Source of the DNA: Agrococcus sp. SGAir0287
Lineage (GTDB): Bacteria; Actinomycetota; Actinomycetes; Actinomycetales; Microbacteriaceae
Length of the DNA: 64,000 bases
Reading direction: 5' to 3'
Assembly (NCBI RefSeq): GCF_005484985.1
Contig: NZ_CP027942.1
Span: 1,364,001 to 1,428,000 of the forward strand
This document shows, one piece after another, positions 11,092 through 64,000 of this stretch (positions within the stretch are counted from its first letter, which is position 1; every line of letters starts with the position of its first letter). A program made the translations under genes and the position numbers. A model generated the notes under the pieces. It had not been told where the DNA came from. It saw only the letters and a list, made by a program, of their open reading frames with translations, and did no database searches.

Positions 11092-12069
11092 GTGGAGCGG
11101 CGCGTCGCGGAGCAGGCGCTGGGCGCCGGCCCCATGGCGACGCTGCTCGAGGATCGCACCGTCGATGCGCGGCTGGGGTCGCGCGACACCGTCGAGCCCT
11201 GGCGTCGCGTCGCCGTGCGCTGGGGCGACCACGGCACGCGGTCGCTGCTCGTCTCGGCGCTCACCGCCGGAGCCGTGCTCGTCGCATACGGCATCACGCT
11301 GCTGCTCGAGCAGCCGCCCGCCTTCGAGGCGCTGCTCGCGCTGCGGCTGCTCGGCATCGTGCTCATGGTGCTCGCCATCGCGCTCGCGCCGGCCTCGCGC
11401 GACGCGCGCCTGCTCGCCGCGTGGGCGCTGTGCCTCCACGCGATCGTCGCGTTGGCCGGCACCGTCATGGTCTCGACCGACCTCTTCGGCCGGCTCCGCA
11501 TCGGGGCGGTCTCCGCCGTCGAGTTCGCCGGCTTCATCACGTGGGTCGCCGTCATGCTGCTGCTGCGCATGCGGCATCCGCTCACGGTGCTCACGACCCT
11601 CATGGGCGGCTGCCTCGCGGGCCTGGCCTTCTTCGGCCGCGTGCTGCCGCTCGTGCGCGAGCGCCTCGCGCAGCAGGACGGCGGGCAGGCGGCGATGCTC
11701 ACGATCGACGACGAGGCCATCGCGAGCCTCGTCATCGTCGGCGTCGGGGTCGCGCTCGTCGTGTTCGCGTGGTGGATCGACGGCTGGGCGCGCGTGCTGC
11801 TGCCGCTCGAGGCGCCCGATCCGAGCGTGCCGGTACGGAGCGAGCGCGAGCGCATCCGGCTCGCCGGCATCCTCACCGCGTGCATGCTCGACCCCGTCGC
11901 GATCGTGCTGCTGCACCTCGCGAAGCAGCCGACGGCGCGATCGCGCCTCGACCCGGACGAGGACTGGTTCGCGACGGCGCTGCTCGTCGTCGCCTACGCG
12001 AAGCTCACGATCTGCTGGGTCGCGATCACGACGATCGCGATCTGGCTGCTCGACCCCGCCTGGTCGTAG
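11092..12069 (+). CDS. Polytopic membrane protein, unknown
   Basis: An integral membrane protein of about 325 residues with eight or so hydrophobic segments and a short soluble N-terminus. I see no motif that names its function. The GTG at 11092 would couple it to the trpD stop; an in-frame ATG at 11134 is an alternative that would remove 14 residues. It ends just before a hairpin terminator shared with glpK. Confidence 0.6.
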   Translation: MERRVAEQALGAGPMATLLEDRTVDARLGSRDTVEPWRRVAVRWGDHGTRSLLVSALTAGAVLVAYGITLLLEQPPAFEALLALRLLGIVLMVLAIALAPASRDARLLAAWALCLHAIVALAGTVMVSTDLFGRLRIGAVSAVEFAGFITWVAVMLLLRMRHPLTVLTTLMGGCLAGLAFFGRVLPLVRERLAQQDGGQAAMLTIDDEAIASLVIVGVGVALVVFAWWIDGWARVLLPLEAPDPSVPVRSERERIRLAGILTACMLDPVAIVLLHLAKQPTARSRLDPDEDWFATALLVVAYAKLTICWVAITTIAIWLLDPAWS

Positions 12070-53088: not shown

Positions 53089-53123
53089 GACTGGATACCG
53101 GGGATATCAACCTAGGTCGTGAG
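53089..53123 (+). repeat. Module-boundary repeat, copy A
   Basis: First of four 35-bp direct repeats with the core GGGGATATCAAC followed by CTAGGTCGTGAG. It separates the copper island from the arsenic module. Position 10 is C, as in copy C. Confidence 0.92.
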
Positions 53124-53186
53124 CTCCTTCGCGAAGTCCTCTGGTTCTGAGGTCGACGCGCTCCACGCGCATGAACCCTCGACGCG

Positions 53187-53600
53187 CTATCGACGAGCGG
53201 GGGCGATCTCCTCGATCAGGCTGGCGATGCGTCCGCGGATCTCGTCGCGGATGGGGCGCACGTCCTCGATGCCCTGACCCGCGGGGTCGTCGAGCTCCCA
53301 GTCCTCGTAGCGCTTCCCCGGGAAGATCGGGCAGGCGTCGCCGCAGCCCATCGTGATGACGACGTCGGACTCGCGCACGGCGTCGACGGTCAGCACCTTC
53401 GGCTGCTCCGCGGTGATGTCGATGCCTTCCTCCGCCATCGCGGCGACGGCAACCGGGTTGATCTGCTCAGCAGGCATCGAGCCTGCCGACCGGACGTCGA
53501 TGCGGCCTTCGCCGAGGCTGCGAAGGTAGCCGGCGGCCATCTGCGAGCGGCCGGCGTTGTGAACGCAGACGAACAGGACGGTGGGCTTGGAATCGGTCAT
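53187..53600 (-). CDS. arsC: Arsenate reductase, low-molecular-weight phosphatase type
   Basis: A 137-residue ArsC of the phosphatase fold: the P-loop reads CVHNAGRS (Cys12), followed by VITMGCGDACPIFPGKRYEDW, whose cysteines form the redox relay. It reduces arsenate to arsenite for export by Acr3, regenerated by thioredoxin or mycothiol. Last gene of the minus-strand ars operon, 12 bases after the ArsR-ArsC fusion gene. Confidence 0.93.
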   Translation of the reverse strand: MTDSKPTVLFVCVHNAGRSQMAAGYLRSLGEGRIDVRSAGSMPAEQINPVAVAAMAEEGIDITAEQPKVLTVDAVRESDVVITMGCGDACPIFPGKRYEDWELDDPAGQGIEDVRPIRDEIRGRIASLIEEIAPARR

Positions 53601-53612
53601 GGGTCTTTCCGT

Positions 53613-54599
53613 TCAGCGGGTGGGGGAGAGGTCGGTGAGGAGCTGCTGGACGCGGGCTGCGATGTCGTCGCGGATCGCTGCAACGCCCTCGGGGGAGGCA
53701 AGGGCGGGGTCGCCCACGGCCCAATCCTCGTAGCGGACGCCGGGAATGACGGGGCACACGTCGCCGCAGCCCATCGTGATGACGACGTCCGCGGCACGGA
53801 CTGCGTCGTCGGTCAGCGGCTTCGGGAAGGCGGTCGCCGCGGTGGGGGCGTCGATCTCCTCGAGGAGGGGTCGCACGTTCGGGTGGACGTCGGCGGCGGG
53901 CGTCGAGCCGGCGGAGCGTGCGACGACGCGACCGCCGGCGTACTGATTGACGAGCGCGGCCGCGAGCTGGGAGCGGCCAGCGTTCGCTACGCACACGAAC
54001 AGCACCTGCGGCACCGAGCCACCGCGATCGCGCTCGAGGTCGCTCAGGCGCTGCCTGGCGAAGCGCTCCGTCAGCGGCACCAGGTGCGCGGTGACGCGAG
54101 CCGTGCGAGCGAGTCCCGTGTAGGACTCTCGGACGATGGATGCGACGACGTCTGCGCTGAGGGCTGGATGAGTGGCGGCGAGGGTGTGGGCGAGGTGGTC
54201 GAGCGCCTCGTCGACGTCTGCCAGGCCGCGGTAGCCGTCGCGGACGGCGGGATTCACGGCGGCGGGCGCGAACGAGTCGAGCAGTGTGGTGACGGCGGGC
54301 TGGAGTGCGGGGGTGATGCGGTACCAGACCCAGGTGCCGCGACGTTCGGAGGTGACGACGCCGGCGTCCTTGAGGACCTTGAGGTGATGCGAGACGGTCG
54401 GTTGCGACACCTCAGCGAGCTCGGCGAGGTCGCACACGCACGACTCGCCGCGTCCGTCGGTGGCGATCGCGGACAGCATCCGCAGCCGCAGCGGGTCGGA
54501 GAGCGCCTTCAGCGTCGTCGCGAGCGATCCGGCAGCGGCCTCGCTGATGGCGTGCGTGTCGGCGGCGACGCAGGCGTCCGTGGTGGTGGGAGTGCTCAT
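53613..54599 (-). CDS. ArsR-ArsC fusion protein
   Basis: A 328-residue protein of three parts. Residues about 20-110 are an ArsR winged helix (SQPTVSHHLKVLKDAG) with CVC in ESCVCDLAEL as arsenite ligands. Residues about 125-192 form a three-helix segment (ALDHLAHTLAATHPALSADV) of the kind found next to ArsC. Residues about 198-325 are a second ArsC domain with P-loop CVANAGRS (Cys203) and GCGDVCPVIPG. It could therefore both sense arsenite and reduce arsenate. The start overlaps the acr3 stop (ATGA). Confidence 0.9.
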   Translation of the reverse strand: MSTPTTTDACVAADTHAISEAAAGSLATTLKALSDPLRLRMLSAIATDGRGESCVCDLAELAEVSQPTVSHHLKVLKDAGVVTSERRGTWVWYRITPALQPAVTTLLDSFAPAAVNPAVRDGYRGLADVDEALDHLAHTLAATHPALSADVVASIVRESYTGLARTARVTAHLVPLTERFARQRLSDLERDRGGSVPQVLFVCVANAGRSQLAAALVNQYAGGRVVARSAGSTPAADVHPNVRPLLEEIDAPTAATAFPKPLTDDAVRAADVVITMGCGDVCPVIPGVRYEDWAVGDPALASPEGVAAIRDDIAARVQQLLTDLSPTR

Positions 54600-55717
54600 C
54601 GTCGAGTCCTCTCGATGGGCCGCGCGGCCGCGGTGGAATCCGGGTCGGTGGCGGTGGGGTCGGTGCGGAACCAGGATCGGGCGATCCAGAGCGAGACGTA
54701 GACGAGGCCCACGAGCACGGGGACCTCGATGAGGGGGCCGACGACGCCTGCCAGCGCTTCGCCGGAGGTCGCGCCGAAGGTGCCGATCGCGACGGCGATC
54801 GCGAGCTCGAAGTTGTTGCCGGCGGCGGTGAACGCCAGCGTGGTGGCGCGGGCGTAGCCGAGGCCGAGCAGCTTGCCGGTGACGATGCCGATGGTCCACA
54901 TGAGCGCGAAGTAGGCCAGCAGCGGCAGCGCGATGCGCACCACGTCGAGCGGCTGCGAGGTGATCGCGTCGCCCTGGAGGGCGAACAGCAGCACGATCGT
55001 GAACAGCAGACCGTAGAGCGCCCACGGTCCGACCTTCGGCAGGAATCGGTCCTCGTACCAGGCGCGTCCCCGGCGGCGCTCGCCGATCCACCGCGACGCG
55101 AATCCGGCCAGCAGCGGCAGGCCGAGGAAGATCAGCACGTTCAGGGCGATCTCGCCGATCGAGACGTTCAGACCCTGCGAGTCGAGGCCGAGCCAGCCCG
55201 GCAGGACGGTCAGGTAGAACCAGCCGAGCAGGGCGAACGCGACGACCTGGAAGGCGGAGTTGATGGCGACGAGCACCGCGGCGGCCTCTCGGTCGCCGCA
55301 TGCGAGGTCATTCCAGATGACGACCATGGCGATGCAGCGGGCGAGGCCGACGATGATGAGGCCGGTGCGGTACTCGGGCAGGTCCGGCAGGAACGTCCAG
55401 GCGAGCGCGAACATGAGCGCAGGCCCGACGATCCCGTTGAGCAGCAGCGATGCCAGCAGCAGCTTCCGGTCGCCGGTGACCGCGGCGACGCGGTCGTAAC
55501 GGACCTTCGCCAGCACCGGGTACATCATCACCAGCAGGCCGAGCGCGATCGGGATCGAGATCCCGCCGACCTCGAGCGCGGCGAGCACGTCGGACACGCC
55601 CGGCAACGCGGAGCCGATGACGAGCCCGGCGACCATGGCCAGGCCGATCCACGCGGGCAGCCAGCGGTCGAGCGTAGATAGGCGACGCATCGCGCCCGTC
55701 CCGGTCGCGTCGGTCAT
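54596..55717 (-). CDS. acr3: Arsenite efflux permease Acr3
   Basis: A 373-residue Acr3-family arsenite/H+ antiporter with ten membrane segments. The essential cysteine is in [18 protein letters not shown] and the conserved [15 protein letters not shown] is present in the second half. It removes arsenite made by ArsC. The start overlaps the trxB stop and the stop overlaps the fusion gene, so translation is coupled along the operon. Confidence 0.95.
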
Positions 55718-56688
55718 GCCACGACCGCCTCAGGGGCTGCAGCCGGAGCGTCGGCGTCGAGGGCGGAGAGGTAGTGCTGCGCGTCCTGCGCGGCGGCGCA
55801 GCCGGTGCCGGCTGCGGTGATCGCCTGCCGGTAGGTGTGGTCGACGAGGTCGCCGGCGGCGAACACGCCCGGCAGGTTCGTGCGGGTGGAGGGGTGGTCG
55901 ACGAGCACGTAGCCGTCGGCGTCGACGTCGACCTGGTCGGCGACGAGCTCGGAGCGCGGGTCGTGACCGATCGCGACGAACACGCCGGTCGCGTCGAGTA
56001 CGCGCTCGGCGCCGGTGACGGTGTCGCGCAGCGTCACGCCCTCGATCTTCGCATCGCCGACGAACCCCGCGATCTCGCTGTTCCAGGCAACCTCGATCTT
56101 CGGGTCGGCGAGGGCACGAGCAGCCATGATCGCCGACGCGCGGAAGGTGTCGCGGCGGTGCACGATCGTCACCTTCGACGCGAACCGGGTCAGGAACAGC
56201 GCCTCCTCCATCGCCGAATCGCCGCCACCGACGACGACGATCTCTTGCTGGCGGAAGAAGAATCCGTCGCAGGTCGCGCACCACGACAGGCCGTGACCGG
56301 TCAGGCGCTCCTCGTCGGCCAGCCCCAGCTTGCGGTAGGCAGACCCCATCGTGAGGATCGCAGTGCGAGCGAGGACCGCCTCGCCAAGCCCCGTCTCGAC
56401 GCGCTTCACATCGCCCGCCAGATCGACCCGCACCGCGTCGTCGAACACGATGCGCGCACCGAACCGCTCGGCCTGCGCACGCATCGACTCCATCAGGTCA
56501 GGGCCCTGGATGCCGTCGACGAAGCCGGGGAAGTTCTCCACCTCGGTCGTCGTCATGAGCGCGCCGCCGGCGGTCACCGACCCGGCCAGCACCACCGGCT
56601 CCAGGCCCGCGCGCGCGGCGTACACCGCTGCGGTATAGCCGGCCGGCCCCGATCCGATGATCACGACATCCATGATCTGATTCGACAT
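55714..56688 (-). CDS. trxB: Thioredoxin reductase
   Basis: A 324-residue NADPH-dependent FAD disulfide reductase. FAD motif [10 protein letters not shown] at the N-terminus, redox pair CATC in [16 protein letters not shown] motif [12 protein letters not shown], and the C-terminal [16 protein letters not shown]. Inside the ars operon it probably supplies electrons to ArsC through a thioredoxin. The gap to the upstream flavoprotein gene is 52 bases with a short palindrome (CCTC-N6-GAGG), possibly an internal promoter or operator. Confidence 0.94.
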
Positions 56689-56740
56689 GCCTCTATATTG
56701 AGGTTTGTCGAATCAGCGCGCAAGTCGCGCCGGATGAACA

Positions 56741-58042
56741 TCAGGTGACGGGGCGCGCGCCGATCTGGACCAGGGCGGGCGCGGGCGCGCAGCATCCGGA
56801 GGCGGCAGGCGCGTCGAACGCGCTCGCGCCGCCGCAGACGCCGGTGTCGGGCAGGACGAGCTCGTCGCGGGCTGCAGCCTCATGGTCGCCAGCGATGTGC
56901 GCTGCGACGCTGCGGACCTGCTCGTATCCGGTGAGCGCGAGGAACGTCGGGGCGCGACCGTAGGACTTCGCGCCCACGACGAAGAGGTTCGCGTCGGGCT
57001 GGGCGAGCTCGGCCGCGCCGGTGGCACCGACCGAGCCGCAGGAGTGGAGGTTCGGGTCGATCGACGCGGCGATCCCGTCGACGGCGTCCAGCGACGAGTC
57101 GATCGCCAGTCGCAGCTCAGACAGGATCGACAGGTCGGGGCGGAAGCCCGTCAGCGCGAACGCATGGCCGACGTCCTGGATGACGCGTCCGTCCTCGCCG
57201 ACGATCGCGAGCCCGTCGCCGCTCTGCCGCACCTCAGCGACCCGGAACCCGCTGACGAGGTCGACGCGGCCGGCGTCGACGGCGCGACGCGCCCGCGCGC
57301 CCAGCGCCGCCCGCTCGGGCAACTCGTCGCCGATGCCGCCGCCGAACACGTTCGCCGTCGAGCCGCGGCGCAGCAGCCAGGTGATGCGCGTATCGGGTGC
57401 GCGTCGCGCGAGGCGATCGAGCTGCAGCAGCGCATGCGTGGCCGAATGGCCGGCGCCGACGACCACGACGTGCTGACTGGCGAACGCCTGAACATCGTCC
57501 GGGATCCGGTACGAGATCCGGTCGGCTGCAGCACGCTCGCCGATGGCGGGCACGCCATCCGCGCCCATCGGACCCGGCTGCCCCCACGTGCCGCTCGCGT
57601 CGACGACGGCGCGTGCGCTGATGCGCTCCTCGCTGCCGTCTGCGCCGGTGACATGCACGATGAACGGAACCTCCACGCGACCCTGCGAGACGACCTTGTC
57701 TCGGCCCTGCTTCGTCACCGCCGTCACCCTCTGGCCGGTGCGCACCCGCTCGCCCAGGGCGGTAGCCAAGGGTGCGAGGTAGCGCTCCACCCACTGCGCA
57801 CCTGTCGGGTAGGCGCGCTCGGGAGCGACCCACCCAGACCGCTCGAGCAGTCGAACCGCTGCGGCGTCCACGAGCTCATCCCATGCCGAGAACAGCCGAA
57901 CATGGCCCCACTCGGCCACCGCTGCGCCAGCAGATCCGCCGCGCTCGAGCACCACCGCCTCGACACCCCGCTCCGTCAGATGCGCCGCCATCGCAAGTCC
58001 CTGCGGACCCGCACCGATCACGACCACCGGCTGCTCAGCCAT
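56741..58042 (-). CDS. FAD/NAD(P)-dependent oxidoreductase of the ars operon (ArsO-like)
   Basis: A 433-residue flavoprotein of the group often annotated ArsO. FAD fold VVVIGAGPQGLAMAAHL at the N-terminus and a second dinucleotide site VVVVGAGHSATHALL (about 190-204). The C-terminus carries a cysteine cluster (SGCCAP) that could bind arsenic. The reaction is unknown. It heads the minus-strand ars operon, with GGAG before the ATG, and is divergent from arsR. Confidence 0.83.
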   Translation of the reverse strand: MAEQPVVVIGAGPQGLAMAAHLTERGVEAVVLERGGSAGAAVAEWGHVRLFSAWDELVDAAAVRLLERSGWVAPERAYPTGAQWVERYLAPLATALGERVRTGQRVTAVTKQGRDKVVSQGRVEVPFIVHVTGADGSEERISARAVVDASGTWGQPGPMGADGVPAIGERAAADRISYRIPDDVQAFASQHVVVVGAGHSATHALLQLDRLARRAPDTRITWLLRRGSTANVFGGGIGDELPERAALGARARRAVDAGRVDLVSGFRVAEVRQSGDGLAIVGEDGRVIQDVGHAFALTGFRPDLSILSELRLAIDSSLDAVDGIAASIDPNLHSCGSVGATGAAELAQPDANLFVVGAKSYGRAPTFLALTGYEQVRSVAAHIAGDHEAAARDELVLPDTGVCGGASAFDAPAASGCCAPAPALVQIGARPVT

Positions 58043-58119
58043 CACCACTCCTAGGATCGAAGAACGTCGATGCGATGAGCATGCAGCATCCATCGACGAA
58101 CGTCAATCAATGTGTCAGG

Positions 58120-58464
58120 ATGGTGCGCGTGACGACCACGACCGCCGCCGACGCGTGCTGCACTCCTGTGGGAGAGGCGGCGATCGATGCCGCCGCCGCT
58201 GAGCAGCTCGCAGTGCGCTTCAAGGCGCTCGGTGACCCGACGCGTGTGCGTCTGCTGTCGCTGATCGCTGCGAGCGACGGGGGAGAGGCGTGCATCTGCG
58301 ACCTCACCGAGCCGGTGGGACTCTCCCAGGGCACGGTGTCGCACCACATGAAGATCCTCGCCGAGGCGGGCTTCGTCACTCGGGATCAGCGCGGGCGCTG
58401 GGCGTACTACGCGATCGCACCCGGTGCCCTTGACGCCACTGCGGCGTCCCTCCGCGCACTCTGA
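58120..58464 (+). CDS. arsR: ArsR-family arsenic repressor
   Basis: A 114-residue ArsR-type repressor with the helix-turn-helix GLSQGTVSHHMKILAEAG. Candidate arsenite ligands are CIC in GEACICDL and a CC pair near the N-terminus (ADACCTP). It probably controls itself and the divergent operon; the 77-base gap has an interrupted inverted repeat (CGTCGATG...CATCGACG). The ATG at 58120 and a GTG at 58129 are both possible starts. An MFS gene began two bases downstream but is cut off. Confidence 0.9.
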   Translation: MVRVTTTTAADACCTPVGEAAIDAAAAEQLAVRFKALGDPTRVRLLSLIAASDGGEACICDLTEPVGLSQGTVSHHMKILAEAGFVTRDQRGRWAYYAIAPGALDATAASLRAL

Positions 58465-58465
58465 C

Positions 58466-58543
58466 GTGACCGCCTCCGTCGACGAGCGCCTCGACTGGCG
58501 TCTCGCCGCCCTCGCCGTCGGCCAGGTCATCAGCTGGGGCTAA
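58466..58543 (+). pseudogene. N-terminal fragment of an MFS transporter
   Basis: A GTG two bases after the arsR stop opens a frame reading DERLDWRLAALAVGQVISWG and then stops. This is the start of an MFS permease of the kind that often follows arsR (the family continues with a hydrophobic segment after ISWG). The match ends at about 58539, where sequence belonging to the boundary repeat region begins, so the rest of the gene was lost in the recombination. Confidence 0.75.
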
Positions 58544-58630
58544 GCGCCGGTCAGCGGTTGATTCCTTCGTGCCTACCCGGTCGCACGGGGAGGCGTATCG
58601 CCACGACGTGAGTACTTCATCCCTGTTTAC

Positions 58631-58665
58631 GACTGGATATCGGGGATATCAACTTACGTCGTGAG
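58631..58665 (+). repeat. Module-boundary repeat, copy B
   Basis: Second copy of the 35-bp repeat, with T at position 10 and two differences in the right part (CTTACGTC for CCTAGGTC). About 45 bases on its left (58586-58630) resemble those left of copy D. It separates the arsenic module from the cadmium/lead-type module. Confidence 0.92.
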
Positions 58666-58685
58666 CTCCCGCCAGGCACTGAGGA

Positions 58686-59246
58686 CTAGGGCCGCATGGG
58701 TCTACCCATGAAGGCCAAGACGATGCACAGCGCCAGACCACCGAAGACGAACACGTCGGCGACGTTTCCGATGAACCAGTCGGCGTAGGCGATGAAGTCC
58801 ACGACGTGACCACGGGCGGGACCAGGGGGTCGTGCCAGGCGGTCGATGACGTTCCCGAGGCCGCCGCCGAGGATGAGGCCAAGGCTCAGTGCCCATGGCA
58901 ACGACGTGGTTCTCCAGGTGAGCCAAGCCGCGAACATCGTGCCTCCGGCGGCGAGGACGGTAATGAGCGGCGTTGCGCTGGCGCCGAGAGAGAATGCCGC
59001 CCCAGGGTTGTAGGTGAGTTGCATCGCGAGCATGTCGCCCAGTAGTGGATGACGCTCGCCGACAGCGAGGCTCGCCTCTGCCCAGACCTTGCTGAGTTGA
59101 TCGATCGCCACGGCTGCGAGCGCGGCGACGTAGCCGAGCAGTGTCACCCTCCACAGTCGAGGTCTCGTGTGTGGTGAGGGGGCGATCCCCTCGACGACTG
59201 TCTGTGCCGCCGAGGGACCTGGTGCGCTGCTGCCAGTCGTCGACAT
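58686..59246 (-). CDS. lspA: Signal peptidase II (LspA) paralogue in metal operon
   Basis: A 186-residue LspA-family aspartic protease with four membrane segments. Motifs: AIDQLSKVW, YNPGAAFSLG, LGNVIDRL with the first catalytic aspartate, and FIGNVADVFVF with the second. The family processes lipoproteins; copies encoded in metal-resistance operons (as in pbr systems) have been linked to lead resistance. The start overlaps the cadD stop by one base. It is the last gene of the cmtR-CDF-cadD-lspA series. Confidence 0.92.
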   Translation of the reverse strand: MSTTGSSAPGPSAAQTVVEGIAPSPHTRPRLWRVTLLGYVAALAAVAIDQLSKVWAEASLAVGERHPLLGDMLAMQLTYNPGAAFSLGASATPLITVLAAGGTMFAAWLTWRTTSLPWALSLGLILGGGLGNVIDRLARPPGPARGHVVDFIAYADWFIGNVADVFVFGGLALCIVLAFMGRPMRP

Positions 59247-59854
59247 CAGGCCAGTACCTCGAATAGGCGCGGAATGACGCCGGACTCGATCAGGATGAAC
59301 AGGCCGAGACCGATGAACACGGCGGGGACCAGCCAGTGCTCGATCCGCTCGAGAGTCTCGGTGACGGCTTTGTGTGTGCCGATGAGCTTGCCGAAGAGGC
59401 ACCAGACGCTCACCAGAGCGAGGAACACGACGATGGTGATCGCGGTGTCCGCGGGCGAGATGGTTCGGAACACCGGCGTGTAGAGGCTGATGTTGTCCGC
59501 CCCATTTGCGATGGTGATTCCGGCGACGCCGAGCAAGCCGAGGTCTTTCATCGCCGACTCGTCAGGATCTGCATCGTCACGATCGCGCAGTCCCCGGATG
59601 AGTCCGATTACACCGATCAGCAGCGGGATGAGCCCGAGGAAGCCGACCCACTCGTCCGGGATGATCGTGAGCCCGAGTGCCGCGACCACGCTGATCGCAA
59701 CGAGCGTCGCGAATCCGAGGTATTGGCCGAGGACGCTCTGCCAGGGCCGCGGCCCGCCGCGGGATGATGCGAGGAAGAGCACGGTGAGTATGACGATGTC
59801 GTCGATGTTGGTTGCCGCGAACATGCCGATCGCGGAGGCGATGGTCGCGAGCAT
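59246..59854 (-). CDS. cadD: Cadmium resistance transporter CadD
   Basis: A 202-residue CadD-family membrane protein with five or six segments: FAATNIDDIVILTVLFLAS at the N-terminus and ITIANGADNISLYTPVF in the middle carry the conserved acidic residues. It confers resistance to cadmium by efflux or binding. The ATG begins immediately beside the IS element, whose CTAG end sits directly upstream; before insertion the gene followed the CDF gene stop without any gap. The IS may now supply or block its transcription. Confidence 0.92.
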   Translation of the reverse strand: MLATIASAIGMFAATNIDDIVILTVLFLASSRGGPRPWQSVLGQYLGFATLVAISVVAALGLTIIPDEWVGFLGLIPLLIGVIGLIRGLRDRDDADPDESAMKDLGLLGVAGITIANGADNISLYTPVFRTISPADTAITIVVFLALVSVWCLFGKLIGTHKAVTETLERIEHWLVPAVFIGLGLFILIESGVIPRLFEVLA

Positions 59855-59921
59855 CTAGGGCGTGTTGATCAAGAAGGTGCGGGGTGGCCAGCCGCCGCGA
59901 GTTGCGCGGGAGAATGGGCGT

Positions 59922-60251
59922 GTGAAGATCCAGGTGCTGCATATCGAGGATTGCCCGAATTGGCAGGAGGCGGGCGATCGAGTACGGCTGGTGCTCGACT
60001 CGATCGGACGGGGCGATGTTCCGGTGGAGTTCGTGTTGATCCGCACCGAGGCTGAGGCGGTGAGCTCTGGTTTCGCGGGCTCGCCCACGATTCTTCTGGA
60101 CGGTCAGGACTTGTTCCCGTCCCAGGGGAACACTGCCGACTTGGCGTGCAGGGTCTATCTGACCGAGCGCGGCATTGCGGGTGCGCCGACGGTGGGACAG
60201 CTTGAGCGCACGCTGCAGGAGCGCGAAGCGCTCAGCGGAGATCGGTCTTGA
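59922..60251 (+). CDS. Thioredoxin-fold protein, IS passenger
   Basis: A 109-residue protein of the small thioredoxin-like ('DF family') group, with HIEDCPNWQEAGDRV at the position of the redox motif (only one cysteine remains) and the cis-proline loop GFAGSPTILLDGQ. In actinobacteria such genes often lie with mercury or organomercury genes. GTG start with GGGAGAATGGGC upstream. Its 3' end overlaps the end of the convergent transposase gene by 20 bases. It lies wholly between the IS inverted repeats. Confidence 0.75.
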   Translation: MKIQVLHIEDCPNWQEAGDRVRLVLDSIGRGDVPVEFVLIRTEAEAVSSGFAGSPTILLDGQDLFPSQGNTADLACRVYLTERGIAGAPTVGQLERTLQEREALSGDRS

Positions 60252-61117
60252 TCCAGATCAGCGCCGCGGCGAGGCTGACGGCGGCTCGGTAGTTGCGGGC
60301 GAGTTTGGTCGAGCGCATCGCGATGCCGCGCCACTGCTTGAGACGGTTGAAGCAGCGTTCTACGACGTTGCGTCCCTTGTAGCGTTCCTTCTGCTTGTCG
60401 CCGAAAGCGATCGGCCGGCCCGGCTTCTTGCGGCGGTGCGCGATCTGGTCGTCCCGCTCGGGGATGGTCGCCGCGATCCTCCGGTCGCGGAGCCAGGCGC
60501 GGTTCGCCCTTGAGGGGTACCCCTTGTCGGCGAGCACCCGGTCGGGGCGGGTGCGGGGGCGGCCCTTCCCGTCGCGGGGAACGCGGATGTTCTCCAGCAC
60601 CGCGCTCATCATCGTGGTGTCGTTGATGTTCCCGGCGGTGATCATCATGCTCAGCGGCCGGCCGCGGCCGTCGCAGACCAGGTGCAGTTTGGTCGTCAGC
60701 CCGCCGCGGGAGCGTCCGATCCCGTGATCAGGCGGCTCGGACCACGGATTCTTGTGATTCGGCACAGCCCCCTGTGTCCCGGGCGAGGGTCGCGCCGTGC
60801 TGATGCACGCGCGCGATCGTGGAGTCGATCGCGACGACCCAGTCGATTTCCCCAGCGGCGTCGGCCTGCTTCTGCACCTCGGTGAGCAGCTTCTGCCAGG
60901 TGCCGTCCCCGGCCCACCGGTTGAACCGCTTGTAGATCGAGTTCCACTTCCCGAACCGTTCCGGAACGTCACGCCACGGCGCACCGGTCCGGTACTTCCA
61001 CGCCATCCCCTCGATAGCGAGCCGGTGATCCGCCCACGGCCGCGACCGACCGGTCACCGTCGGCATCAACGGCTCCATCACGGCCCACACCTCGTCAGAG
61101 ATCTCCTGTCGCGTCAC
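60232..61117 (-). CDS. IS5-family transposase in two frames
   Basis: The first frame (61117 to about 60770) encodes MTRQEISDEVWAVMEPLMP and the first catalytic aspartate in VVAIDSTIARVHQHG. The second frame (to 60232) has the second aspartate in HLVCDGRGRPLSMMITAG and the glutamate in NVVERCFNRLKQWRGIAM. The switch falls at the run of five Gs (complement 60768-60772), a usual site of programmed slippage in this family. The joined product is about 295 residues, a normal length, so the element may be active. Confidence 0.88.
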
Positions 61118-61165
61118 CGTTCAAGACTCACCCACCGAGGAGCGGAACCTCTTGATCAACACGCC

Positions 61166-61819
61166 CTAGTCGTTCTTCGCTTCGAGCTCGCCCAGGACTT
61201 CGAAGGGCGATTCGACATCGCCGCGCCACGCCTCGATGCCTTCGCGGATCGCGAGCCCAGCGACGATGAGGGCAGCCACGGAATCTGCCCACATCCAGCC
61301 GAAGAGCAGGTTGAGCAGCAGGCCGATGAGCACCGTGCCCGACAGGTAAATGCAGAGGAGCAATTGCTTGGCGTCCGCTTGCACGCTGCGCGAGCCGAGC
61401 TCGCGGCCGGTGCGGAACTCGAACCAGGCGAGCGCCGGCATGACGAGCAGGCTGAGGGTGGCGATGCCGATGCCGAGCGGGCTGTGGTCAACCTCTTCCA
61501 CGCCGGTCAGCGTGAGGACCGCGTCGATGATGACGTAGGCGGCGAGGGCGAAGAATGCGATGCCGATCGCGCGGACGGTGGCCTTCTCCCACCGTTCCGG
61601 ATTCTTGCGTGTGAACTGCCACGCGACTGCGGCCGCGGAGAGCACCTCGACGATCGAATCAAGCCCGAACCCGATCAGCGCGGCCGAGGAGGCCATCGAG
61701 CCCGCCCATATCGCGACGATCGCCTCGATGACGTTGTAGGTGATCGTGAAGCCGACGATGAACCGCACGCGGCGATGCAGGGTGCTCCGTCGTGCCTCGG
61801 TCAGCGTCCCCGCGCTCAT
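61166..61819 (-). CDS. Cation diffusion facilitator family transporter
   Basis: A 217-residue CDF-type transporter of six membrane segments: GFTITYNVIEAIVAIWAG, GFGLDSIVEVLSA with the metal-site aspartate, and RSVQADAKQLLLCIYLS and WADSVAALIVAG with the second pair. There is no long cytoplasmic domain. Likely exports Cd, Zn or Co. Its TAG stop is part of the CTAG target repeat of the IS, so the coding region survived the insertion intact. The ATG overlaps the cmtR stop (ATGA). Confidence 0.87.
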   Translation of the reverse strand: MSAGTLTEARRSTLHRRVRFIVGFTITYNVIEAIVAIWAGSMASSAALIGFGLDSIVEVLSAAAVAWQFTRKNPERWEKATVRAIGIAFFALAAYVIIDAVLTLTGVEEVDHSPLGIGIATLSLLVMPALAWFEFRTGRELGSRSVQADAKQLLLCIYLSGTVLIGLLLNLLFGWMWADSVAALIVAGLAIREGIEAWRGDVESPFEVLGELEAKND

Positions 61820-62169
61820 CGGACCGACTCGCAGCAGCCGGGGACCGAACACTCCGGGTCGAGGCATGGCGCTTGCTCGTCCACGGCCAATGTCACCTCG
61901 ACCAGCGCAGTCAGCGCCCGTGCGAGGTGCGGGTCGGCGATCTCGTACCGCGTCTGGCGGCCCTCAGGCTCGGTCACGACGATGCCGCAATCACGTAGGC
62001 AGGCGAGATGATTCGATACGTTCGAGCGCGTCAGCTCGAGCGCGCGCGCAAGGACCGCGGGATAGTTCGGTCCTTGCAGCAAGGTCAGCAAGATGCGTGA
62101 GCGGGTCGGATCCGCCATCGCCCGGCCCAGCCGATGCATGACGTCCAGTCGGTTCGCAATAGTCGGCAC
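61816..62169 (-). CDS. cmtR: Cadmium/lead-sensing repressor CmtR
   Basis: A 117-residue ArsR/SmtB-family sensor. Counting from the GTG at 62169 the cysteines fall at 57, 61 and 102 (in NHLACLRDCG and QAPCLDPEC), exactly the Cd/Pb ligands of M. tuberculosis CmtR, which supports this start. There is no ribosome site; TATAGT lies just six bases upstream of the GTG, so the mRNA is probably leaderless. The gene leads the cmtR-CDF-cadD-lspA operon, which it should repress. Confidence 0.93.
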   Translation of the reverse strand: MPTIANRLDVMHRLGRAMADPTRSRILLTLLQGPNYPAVLARALELTRSNVSNHLACLRDCGIVVTEPEGRQTRYEIADPHLARALTALVEVTLAVDEQAPCLDPECSVPGCCESVR

Positions 62170-62180
62170 ACACTGACTAT
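62159..62180. promoter_or_regulatory. CmtR operator overlapping its own start codon
   Basis: ATAGTC-N10-GACTAT, a perfect inverted repeat with the GTG start of cmtR inside the spacer. It also covers the -10 hexamer TATAGT on the minus strand. Bound CmtR would block promoter and start together. Confidence 0.7.
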
Positions 62181-62395
62181 ACAGCAAACGCTGTCGTGTC
62201 GACGATCATGGAGGCGCAGACGGACGGCACGCGGCGCATCCGGTTGGTGCAGCTGCTGCAGCAACTGAAGCGCTCGGGCGCCGACCAGACCCTCGCGATT
62301 CCGGCATAACACACCGGCCAGGCGGCTTGCTGGAGCGTTCCGCCGCGGCCTGGAGGAGCGATACCAGTGGTGCGAGTGGAGGTACTACCCGATTT
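62181..62395. other. Region upstream of cmtR up to repeat C
   Basis: About 215 bases. On the plus strand an ATG at 62208 opens 33 codons (MEAQTDGTRRIRLVQLLQQL...) ending at 62309; it looks helical and could be the tail of a lost gene, but I cannot name it. No other feature seen. Confidence 0.4.
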
Positions 62396-62430
62396 GACTG
62401 GATACCGGGGATATCAACCTAGGTCGTGAA
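62396..62430 (+). repeat. Module-boundary repeat, copy C
   Basis: Third copy of the 35-bp repeat, identical to copy A except the last base (A for G). It separates the cadmium/lead module from a single-gene module. Confidence 0.92.
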
Positions 62431-62483
62431 GGAGCGTCGCGAGCCATCTCCGACAGGAAAGCGGTCGAGGCTACGCTCGCGAC

Positions 62484-63224
62484 GTGCCCACAGACCCGGA
62501 CCAGCAGACGGCGCACGCGCTCCTTACTGCTTTGCGCGCGTTCGCGGGCGGGACGTTCATGTCGACCTCTCCCGCGCCCGGGGAACTACGTCTGACTCCG
62601 GTCTCTCAGCCCCGCCGGAACGTGCATGTCTCCTTCCTTCGAGGGGGCGCCTTCATCGGCTTTGGACCATTCACCGCGGAGAGCGACGTCGCGCTCGCAG
62701 ACGTCAACGACGGTGATAGTCCGCAGGATCCGGCGCTTCACTTCGACTGGGCTCTCACCCAGCTCACTTGGCTCATCGAGTGGGGCGCGTTCCGGCGGCT
62801 ACCTCTGCTCGAGCTCGTGATCCCCGACACTGCTGAGAAGGCGCGATCGTTGGCACGATCCCCGCTGGCGATCAGGTACTCCCGACCCTGGTGGGACGAT
62901 CACAACCGCCGCGAGGCAATCCCGTGGTCGGGCCCAGACGCACCTGCGACCCGTGTAGAACTCGCGGCCCGTCTGACTCATGAACTCCGCAACCAATGGA
63001 ACCACTGGGAGGGACGGAGCGAAGCTGGAGTCGACCCACTCAGCGCAGCGATGACGGCGTCCGCCTTGGTCCCCGTCTCAGAGGAAGACGTCAAAGTGAT
63101 CATCGAGACGTTCTCGGCGCAGTTGACCACAGGTGATGATGGCGACCTCGATGTCGACGCGGCCGTCGACTGGCTCATTGATCGCTACCGCGATCGTCTG
63201 CCAGGTCAGAACGAGACGCTCTAG
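62484..63224 (+). CDS. Unknown protein, sole gene of module C-D
   Basis: A 246-residue soluble acidic protein I do not recognise. It starts at GTG 62484 without a clear ribosome site. Features are a beta-rich first third (ELRLTPVSQPRRNVHVSFLR, GGAFIGFGPFTAESD), an aromatic middle (LTQLTWLIEWGAFRRLPLLE, YSRPWWDDHNRRE), a helical NQWNHWEGRSEAG and an acidic C-terminal helix. Its base composition is somewhat less GC-rich than the neighbours. It is the only cargo between repeats C and D. Confidence 0.65.
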   Translation: MPTDPDQQTAHALLTALRAFAGGTFMSTSPAPGELRLTPVSQPRRNVHVSFLRGGAFIGFGPFTAESDVALADVNDGDSPQDPALHFDWALTQLTWLIEWGAFRRLPLLELVIPDTAEKARSLARSPLAIRYSRPWWDDHNRREAIPWSGPDAPATRVELAARLTHELRNQWNHWEGRSEAGVDPLSAAMTASALVPVSEEDVKVIIETFSAQLTTGDDGDLDVDAAVDWLIDRYRDRLPGQNETL

Positions 63225-63264
63225 ACGATCAAACGGCGTGGCCGAGGACCACCGGTTTCGAGAT

Positions 63265-63281
63265 CTGCACCATTGGTGCAG
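63265..63281. repeat. Palindrome in the region left of repeat D
   Basis: CTGCACCATTGGTGCAG, a perfect inverted repeat of 8-bp arms around one base. GATCTGCACCAT recurs at about 63341, 79 bases downstream. Possibly a binding site or part of the recombination region. Confidence 0.5.
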
Positions 63282-63480
63282 TTTCTGCAAGTCATCAGAC
63301 GAAATCTGCGGCCAGGACGTAGTTCCGGATGTTGCAAGATCTGCACCATCCGAGCTGGCGCGCTGGCATCGCGCGACGCGGTTCGCTCAGAGGAAGCCCC
63401 GGTCGAAAGCCGATCTCGGCAGATCCACTCCGGCGTGCGGGGAGGCGCATCAGGAGGGCGTGAGTGCGTCATCCCTCCTC

Positions 63481-63515
63481 AACTGGATATCGGGGATATC
63501 AACCTAGGTCGTGAG
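63481..63515 (+). repeat. Module-boundary repeat, copy D
   Basis: Fourth copy of the 35-bp repeat (A for G at position 1; T at position 10 as in copy B). The 44 bases to its left share GGGGAGGCG and TCATCCCT with the left flank of copy B. Confidence 0.92.
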
Positions 63516-63595
63516 CCGGCACGCGTCGAGTGATTGAGAGCAGCAGCATGGCCCGAGCCGTCGTGCTCGAGATGCAGATCCGCGGTGCCACAATC

Positions 63596-64000
63596 TCACG
63601 CAAGGGCGCGTGCGAGGTTCGTGAAGGCTCGAGCTGCGGGCGATCGCTCTCCTGTCCAGATGGCGGTGAACGTGCGCAGGATCGGGTCCCCGGAGTGCGC
63701 GATGCGGGCCAGCTCTCCGGTAGCGAGGTCGGGCTCGGCGGATCTGAGGCTGAGTACCGCCGGGGCGACACCTGCGCGTGCGGTGGCCCGGATGATCGCG
63801 GTCGTCTCGAGCTCTGCTGCGGGCGCCGCGGGCGCGAGCCCCATGTGGGCGAACCAGGCTTCGATGGTGGCGCGTGTCCCGGAGCCAGGTTCGCGCATCA
63901 GCAGCGGCGTCGCTGCAATGTCTACTGGAGCGACGGGCTGCTCCTCGGTCCAAGGGTGGTCCAATGTCGCGACGAGGACCAGCTCGTCATCGAGGAGCGG
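63596..64000 (-). CDS. LysR-type regulator, C-terminal part (5' end outside window)
   Basis: The frame is open to the window edge and gives the last 134 residues of a LysR-type effector-binding domain: PLLDDELVLVATLDHPW, LLMREPGSGTRATIEAWF, AIIRATARAGVAPAVLSL and a C-terminal helix TNLARALA. The DNA-binding domain lies beyond the window. First gene right of repeat D, so it may belong to a further module. Target unknown. Confidence 0.78.
   Translation of the reverse strand, partial: PLLDDELVLVATLDHPWTEEQPVAPVDIAATPLLMREPGSGTRATIEAWFAHMGLAPAAPAAELETTAIIRATARAGVAPAVLSLRSAEPDLATGELARIAHSGDPILRTFTAIWTGERSPAARAFTNLARALA

Follow-up and report, generated by a model that had tools for sequence, protein, structure and literature searches.

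Direct 35-bp repeats divide a run of metal-resistance genes in a 64,000-bp window of the Agrococcus sp. SGAir0287 chromosome (NZ_CP027942.1, positions 1,364,001 to 1,428,000; positions below are counted from the first letter of this window, the whole stretch analyzed). Genome comparison makes it likely that the locus belongs to a group of Xer-site-targeting tyrosine-recombinase transposons, with five of their non-autonomous, cargo-bearing relatives stacked beside dif, the chromosomal Xer site. The unit ends, the units, their target, the preserved dif, the stacking, the reversed unit order in two species, and the colocation of a recombinase module with Xer sites were each read directly from the genomes compared.

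The window's genome (G000; other genomes are cited by G numbers) is a single 3.08-Mb contig. Its four repeat copies in the window (A to D; Table 1) all lie on the forward strand in direct orientation and open with GACTGGATA in copies A to C and with AACTGG in copy D. As the original prediction held, they are near identical: the pattern CTGGATAYCGGGGATATCAACYTASGTCGTGA at up to 3 mismatches matched four times in the window, against a maximum of 0 in 100 dinucleotide shuffles, and copies A and C have C at base 10, where copies B and D have T. Across the whole genome, the 22-base core (≤3 mismatches) gave five matches, all on the forward strand and within 17.3 kb, and the reversed-pattern control gave none. 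The fifth copy (E) lies 6.3 kb past the window end and 6.9 kb beyond copy D; at ≤6 mismatches, no sixth copy was found in the window and the 19 kb beyond it, only the same five. Within the genus, 7 of 24 genomes hold the repeat, G000 included. A pattern scan of named records returned 17 stretches, of which 6 have the repeat with similar flanks (Agrococcus baldri, A. lahaulensis, and Agrococcus sp. KRD186); the other 11, with flanks unlike the Agrococcus ones, look like chance matches and were set aside.

The dif pattern (≤3 mismatches) occurs exactly once in each of the 24 genomes of the genus, as CGATAATGCACATTATGTC without difference in 19 and with one base changed in G014, G015, G017, and G018; it agrees over 19 bases with the dif given for Frankia (PMC3025954). 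In G000, dif lies at chromosomal position 1,436,864 and dnaA at 307, which places dif 46.6% of the way round the chromosome, and the array ends exactly at dif. In all seven repeat-bearing genomes, the nearest repeat on the contig of dif is 2.4 to 20.2 kb from it, always on one side and in one relative orientation. The idea that the repeat is itself the Xer/dif site was rejected: it aligns poorly to dif by eye, and dif is separate and single copy.

Relatives were searched for empty sites, as originally proposed, and one was found. In G011 the chromosomal flank joins dif directly (...CAACCAACG/AATCCGACATAATG...), whereas the G010 version of this flank (91% similarity over 1355 columns) joins a left end (...CAACCAACG/GACTGGATATC...); the dif flank of G015 is related to that of G011. 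Comparison of the two junctions therefore places insertion at the outer edge of the XerD arm, with dif kept on the right. Unit order points the same way. G010 reads chromosome-cadmium and arsenic-dif (two contigs), and G000 reads arsenic-cadmium, further units, then dif; since both orders end at dif, the reversal in the second species argues that units were added serially while dif stayed whole. These comparisons support serial insertion of the units at the outer edge of the XerD arm of dif, with dif left intact. The serial site-specific integration suggested in the original prediction is thus borne out by discrete units, shared ends, reversed order in a second species, and a single fixed target.

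All five intervals delimited by the repeats and dif (U1 to U5; Table 1) are units, not only A-B and C-D as had been proposed. Over 5540 bp, U1 shares 99.7% identity with a G010 unit that runs from the repeat to dif. In the aligned pieces, U2 is 99.7 to 99.8% identical to a second G010 unit, apart from a 1.3-kb insert with a partial DDE_Tnp_1 transposase that breaks U2 at 59859 to 61165 and is missing from the G010 unit. U2-related units are also present in G001, G002, and G016, and a mercury unit (MerR- and MerA-like genes, named by eye) is common to G001, G006, and G016 at 97 to 98% identity. The sequence GGTCGTGAACCTGAGCACAGAGTC, shared by 4 of the 24 genomes, was tried as a chromosomal anchor and rejected, being the start of this mercury unit. 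The repeat varies at base 10 (C or T) and in the stretch that follows (CTAGG or TTACG), and these variants move with the unit, which identifies the repeat as the left end of the unit; by this sequence evidence, each of the five copies is the left end of a mobile unit. The repeat therefore does mark unit borders, as first read, but as one (left) end per unit rather than as a symmetric site on both sides. In PLSDB, 68 plasmid records match the arsenic unit in part, and none covers 80% of it.

The right ends are less uniform. The flanks that touch dif fall into families (family 1 in G001 and G002, 2 in G006 and G014, 3 in G010 and the less similar G016, and 4 in G000), and the same families also adjoin repeats. 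The 45 bp that copies B and D were reported to share on their left are real and lie inside an 81-column stretch of 81.5% similarity, but they form the right end of the preceding unit; copy C is preceded by a right end of a different family. Of the 24 unit right ends, 15 have an exact CCGGYCA motif 77 to 82 bp from the junction. The motif is absent there from all 5 chromosomal flanks that we count as leftmost and from all 17 dif flanks of repeat-less genomes; in G004 it occurs at 29 bp. Many right ends (L115 to L129 and L172 to L179) also contain an imperfect palindrome, seen by eye, about 15 to 35 bp from the Xer arm (e.g., ATTCGCAT...ATGCGAAT), a candidate core site for the recombinase. Nothing was drawn from a GGGGAG motif near dif; it resembles the Escherichia coli KOPS but is also present in 6 of the 17 repeat-less dif flanks.

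We then asked which genomes carry a recombinase with these ends. A genome-wide search of G000 with PF00589 (Phage_integrase), the one recombinase family searched at this scale, returned two matches only, most likely XerC and XerD. Neither lies in the window and no recombinase was seen among the unit genes annotated from copy A rightwards, in agreement with the original prediction. Copies beside recombinase genes were found in relatives: the dif-touching units of G014 and G016 start with the same left end as the window units and carry a tyrosine recombinase module, and no second left-end site occurs inside them (forward strand, ≤7 mismatches). The G014 unit encodes, next to dif, a Phage_integrase protein (342 amino acids [aa] as searched), followed in the module by a 112-aa HTH_26 protein and a 473-aa third protein; G016 has nucleotide homologues of this module (77% over 3000 columns). 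The catalytic set R190, K223, H298, R301, H325, and Y334 is present in 30 of 30 aligned recombinase homologues. Six cysteines are invariant across 46 aligned homologues of the third protein, and at the positions of the H-x-x-R, LGH, and tyrosine of the recombinase this protein has, by eye, other residues. A search with its predicted structure (mean pLDDT 86.5) returned only tyrosine recombinases among the 50 matches listed (best E 4.8e-5; TM-score by target 0.37 to 0.59), and the middling recombinase model (pLDDT 75.3) also matches tyrosine recombinases; by sequence, no recombinase was among the matches of the third protein to solved structures. We take the third protein to be a zinc-finger protein of tyrosine-recombinase fold that lacks the catalytic motifs.

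Beside dif in G000, a stretch 75 to 78% similar to the helix-turn-helix (HTH) gene looks as if it were the remnant of a decayed autonomous element. At the left of the G016 array (11332 to 11982) stands a truncated recombinase copy, perhaps a relic of an older autonomous element. A gene for a small serine resolvase is present too in the recombinase-bearing units of both genomes, G014 and G016 (L053:280-861 and its G016 counterpart), and one G014 unit contains an IS256-like transposase (named by eye).

To determine how widely the module and its link to Xer sites occur, we examined recombinase homologues beyond the genus. They were found in 39 of 398 Microbacteriaceae genomes, and the loci of the 30 best were scanned upstream for GACATAA-N6-TTATC[AG] (≤2 mismatches). 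Such a site precedes 14 of the 16 best-scoring loci, query included (13 at 303 to 369 bp and one at 882 bp), against an expectation of 0.0028 per 600 bp in mononucleotide shuffles. Of the two loci that lack it, one is a G348 copy separated from dif by a second element and the other lies 215 bp from a contig end. The three-gene order is kept, by homology, in 18 of 18 Microbacteriaceae stretches (L144 to L161). A homologue is also present in 188 plasmid records. In the 12 plasmid loci examined, taken from the rows listed among these, an HTH gene and then a third gene always come after an integrase gene, the third known by annotation only (recombinase or integrase in 8, hypothetical in 4). An Xer-like site (0 to 1 mismatches) lies 326 to 417 bp upstream in 9 of the 12. 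The three without it stand close behind another recombinase gene, beside IS6100, and on a Streptomyces plasmid recorded as linear; a Mycobacterium riyadhense plasmid likewise recorded as linear does have it, so a linear form alone cannot account for the absence of the site. In a 396-genome sample of the phylum, homologues occurred in 9 genomes and the site at 2 of 10 loci, the two best scoring. The recombinase tree comprises 56 rows, 54 of them different; in 28 rows a site lies within 1 kb, and this label changes 6 times, compared to 18.8 times in shuffles.

Two genomes outside Agrococcus hold more than one copy of an element. In G225, copies of a 4.31-kb element (99.84 to 99.93% identical to each other) occupy the dif of the main contig and three dif-like sites on a second, 124-kb contig that is presumably a plasmid. 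The targets on this second contig consist of GACATAA, differing central bases, and TATCGG; the 90 bases shown of each left end are the same in all copies, and one copy stands directly behind the apparent right end of a related element (by eye). In G348, a 3.36-kb element (99.82% identity) occupies dif and a second dif-like site, and a second element with a full module lies behind the first at dif. In both genomes, about 5 bases between the right end and the Xer arm vary among copies of one element, and no matching 5-bp flanks were seen by eye. The target choice and the stacking therefore recur outside Agrococcus.

Gene annotation, which covered the sequence from copy A rightwards and thus not the "copper" region on its left, showed distinct cargo in each unit (Table 1). 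U4 contains a LysR regulator, a SLAC1-family channel, CrcB, a zf-HC2 protein, and Lipoprotein_15. U5 carries a CD-NTase with an AGS-C domain and a SLATT_4 two-transmembrane effector, a CBASS-type pair (70417 to 72092), so that antiphage genes stand in one array with metal resistance. The orphan frame of U3 (62484 to 63224), the only sizeable gene predicted in that unit, had no Pfam and no PADLOC match.

Table 1. Repeat copies, units, and right ends of the array in window numbering, and members of the recombinase clade without nearby Xer sites
Feature	Position	Strand	Content or basis
Copy A, left end of U1 (arsenic)	53089..53123	+	Pattern scan; moves with the arsenic unit to G010
U1, 5542 bp	53089..58630	+	Pfam: LMWP-phosphatase-family (ArsC-type) protein, SBF-family (ACR3-type) transporter, two pyridine-nucleotide/FAD oxidoreductases, ArsR-family regulator
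U1 right end, flank family 3, from its CCGGTCA motif	58547..58630	+	Family 3 also lies directly before dif in G010
Copy B, left end of U2 (cadmium)	58631..58665	+	Pattern scan
U2, 3765 bp	58631..62395	+	Pfam: signal peptidase II, CadD-type transporter, cation-efflux protein
U2 right end, flank family 2, from its CCGGCCA motif	62314..62395	+	Family 2 precedes dif in G006 and the recombinase-bearing G014
Copy C, left end of U3	62396..62430	+	Pattern scan
U3, 1085 bp	62396..63480	+	One 246-aa orphan frame; right end of family 3, with CCGGTCG replacing CCGGYCA
Copy D, left end of U4	63481..63515	+	Pattern scan
U4 start	63481..64000	+	U4 is 6855 bp and extends past the window to 70335
Copy E; U5, 2524 bp; then dif	copy E at 70336; dif from 72860	+	CBASS pair in U5; strand given for copy E; read beyond the window
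Non-dif clade rows	L130-L143, L164, L166-L170, L182		Recombinase tree

These observations fit a model in which the five non-autonomous units that stand in a row beside dif, each with a 35-bp left end and a right end of about 80 to 120 bp, are members of a tyrosine-recombinase transposon family that recognizes the Xer site and integrates at the outer edge of its XerD arm. Integration would leave the site whole, so that the next element could use the same place and newer units should lie nearer dif. Autonomous members would carry the three-gene module, which encodes a tyrosine recombinase with a complete catalytic set, a small HTH protein of Cro/C1 type, and an inactive zinc-finger protein of recombinase fold; the first gene of the module would start about 300 to 420 bp from the target. 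The module recombinase is the likely catalyst, and a recombinase family seeking Xer sites on actinobacterial chromosomes and plasmids probably drives insertion. The module-less units of G000 were presumably moved in trans by an autonomous element. Movement may pass through a circular intermediate, with units having arrived in the order that the array suggests; by analogy with what is described for SE and Tn554 elements, a short spacer may be left behind. Targeting could be guided by bound XerC/XerD or by the DNA sequence only.

Several findings weigh against this model. The empty site comes from a sister species rather than from the same strain, and the G010 order was read across two contigs. 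Nine of the 24 unit ends (both flank-4 ends of G000 and seven others) have no exact CCGGYCA. The mercury unit has a family 2 right end in G001 and a family 1 right end in G006 and G016, and the cadmium unit likewise differs in right-end family between genomes; with one cargo having different right ends, either ends were exchanged or the units are older mosaics. No recombinase homologue was detected at E 1e-20 in the array-bearing G000, G001, G006, and G010, which is why movement in trans is invoked for their units. For the third protein, the fold matches are modest (TM-score by query 0.22 to 0.38), and its profile-profile comparison with the recombinase is weak (probability 2%, E 0.022), the fold search being clearer. 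Among the Microbacteriaceae loci, the Xer site was found at 0 of the 14 lower-scoring ones, the L123 site is 882 bp away, and the L122 site has 2 mismatches. Finally, a 21-row clade of the tree (support 100/98) has no Xer site nearby (0/21), and the recombinase family is therefore not bound to Xer sites.

Other explanations were weighed against the same evidence. Accessory genes accumulate at dif or plasmid dif sites in Xer-exploiting integrative elements (IMEX) and in Acinetobacter dif modules, and Xer-exploiting elements use host XerCD and carry dif-type sites at their borders. If host XerC/XerD had integrated circles bearing a dif-like site here, the 35-bp repeats would be worn hybrid dif sites. 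This explanation, which we consider unlikely, would account for the choice and preservation of dif, for the lack of a third Phage_integrase match in G000, and for the lack of a recombinase in the gene predictions for the units of G000 and G001. However, Xer exchange takes place at the edges of the central 6 bp, so left junctions made by Xer should keep the chromosomal XerD arm, whereas the junctions observed lie at its outer edge. The left ends read ACTGGATAYCG in all seven genomes (bar two degenerate copies), compared to ATCCGACATAA for dif in G010 and G011, and relatives have a dedicated recombinase module at the site. In contrast to IMEX, one dif stands at one border only, the left ends are non-dif, and the left junctions lack the XerD arm, which speaks against a dif-like attP.

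Assembly of a metal-resistance island by homologous recombination or insertion sequences, with the repeats as old insertion sequence ends, is less probable still. The transposase-bearing insert in U2, the IS256-like transposase in G014, and the mosaic right ends would suit it, but borders are reproducible beside dif in several species, orientation is conserved in 7 of 7 genomes, and no inverted second copy of the repeat exists. Least credible is the cassette-type, integron-like capture offered in the original prediction, with dif as attI and right ends as attC: serial insertion at one restored site, varied adaptive cargo, and palindromic right ends seen by eye in other genera recall integrons, but the target is an Xer/dif site, the linked recombinase scores 29.6 bits, far below the 265-bit cutoff of the integron-integrase model, and in autonomous members it lies inside the mobile unit, and the units span 1.1 to 6.9 kb, several being multigene with their own regulators.

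Among known systems, the closest in target choice is the IS1202 family (ISAjo2 group), described as "dif site hunters" of Acinetobacter; its members also target chromosomal dif and plasmid dif-like sites in a fixed orientation near an Xer arm (PMC10132070). This family has a single DDE transposase (~440 to 460 aa), a length of 1.5 kb, 24- to 26-bp inverted repeats, and a 5-bp target duplication 5 bp from the XerC arm (PMC10132070), whereas the elements here have a tyrosine recombinase and multigene cargo and insert on the XerD side with no duplication seen. No inverted copy of the left end was found at the right end of the units (G000 array and G014/G016 units), unlike the IS1202 structure. 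The original prediction had raised the possibility that the repeat forms the end of an insertion sequence already known. It does form an end, but the element is of the tyrosine-recombinase kind, no published family was found for it, and the cargo differs between copies.

SE and GInt elements share with the module a catalytic tyrosine recombinase, a recombinase-fold partner without catalytic motif, a small accessory protein, target-specific insertion, and cargo (PMC10214605). As described there, SE combines two catalytic recombinases with Tfp and Srap and comes from Gammaproteobacteria only, GInt is reported from Gamma- and Betaproteobacteria, and the passages describing them give no dif targeting (PMC10214605); here the elements occur in Actinobacteria at dif/Xer sites, and the G014 set of one catalytic recombinase, an HTH_26 protein, and an inactive recombinase-fold protein differs from theirs. 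The Tn554 family (see also PMC10214605) is likewise a tyrosine-recombinase transposon with a site-specific target and no target duplication, but it has tnpA/tnpB/tnpC, another target, and no known counterpart of the inactive recombinase. By sequence, the elements agree with tyrosine-recombinase transposons in general, having the R, K, H, R, H, Y set in a unit with reproducible ends at a specific target. No tyrosine-recombinase dif hunter in Actinobacteria was found in the open-access literature, judged by title and abstract start among the matches listed, most subscription journals lying outside this search.

On balance, we lean toward a broader interpretation: an undescribed, Actinobacteria-wide family hunts dif and plasmid Xer sites via the XerD arm or bound XerD and leaves the site working, making dif a growing dock for trans-mobilized metal-resistance and antiphage packages. 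If true, this would be a second solution to "dif hunting," mechanistically unrelated to the IS1202 family, and it raises the question of whether a recombinase can use the host dimer-resolution complex as a landing platform. The left end, the right end, and a module about 300 to 420 bp from an Xer site would provide a searchable signature for mobile cargo on actinobacterial chromosomes and plasmids. For Agrococcus, the finding would explain how arsenic, cadmium, mercury, and antiphage gene sets come to accumulate at one place on the chromosome.

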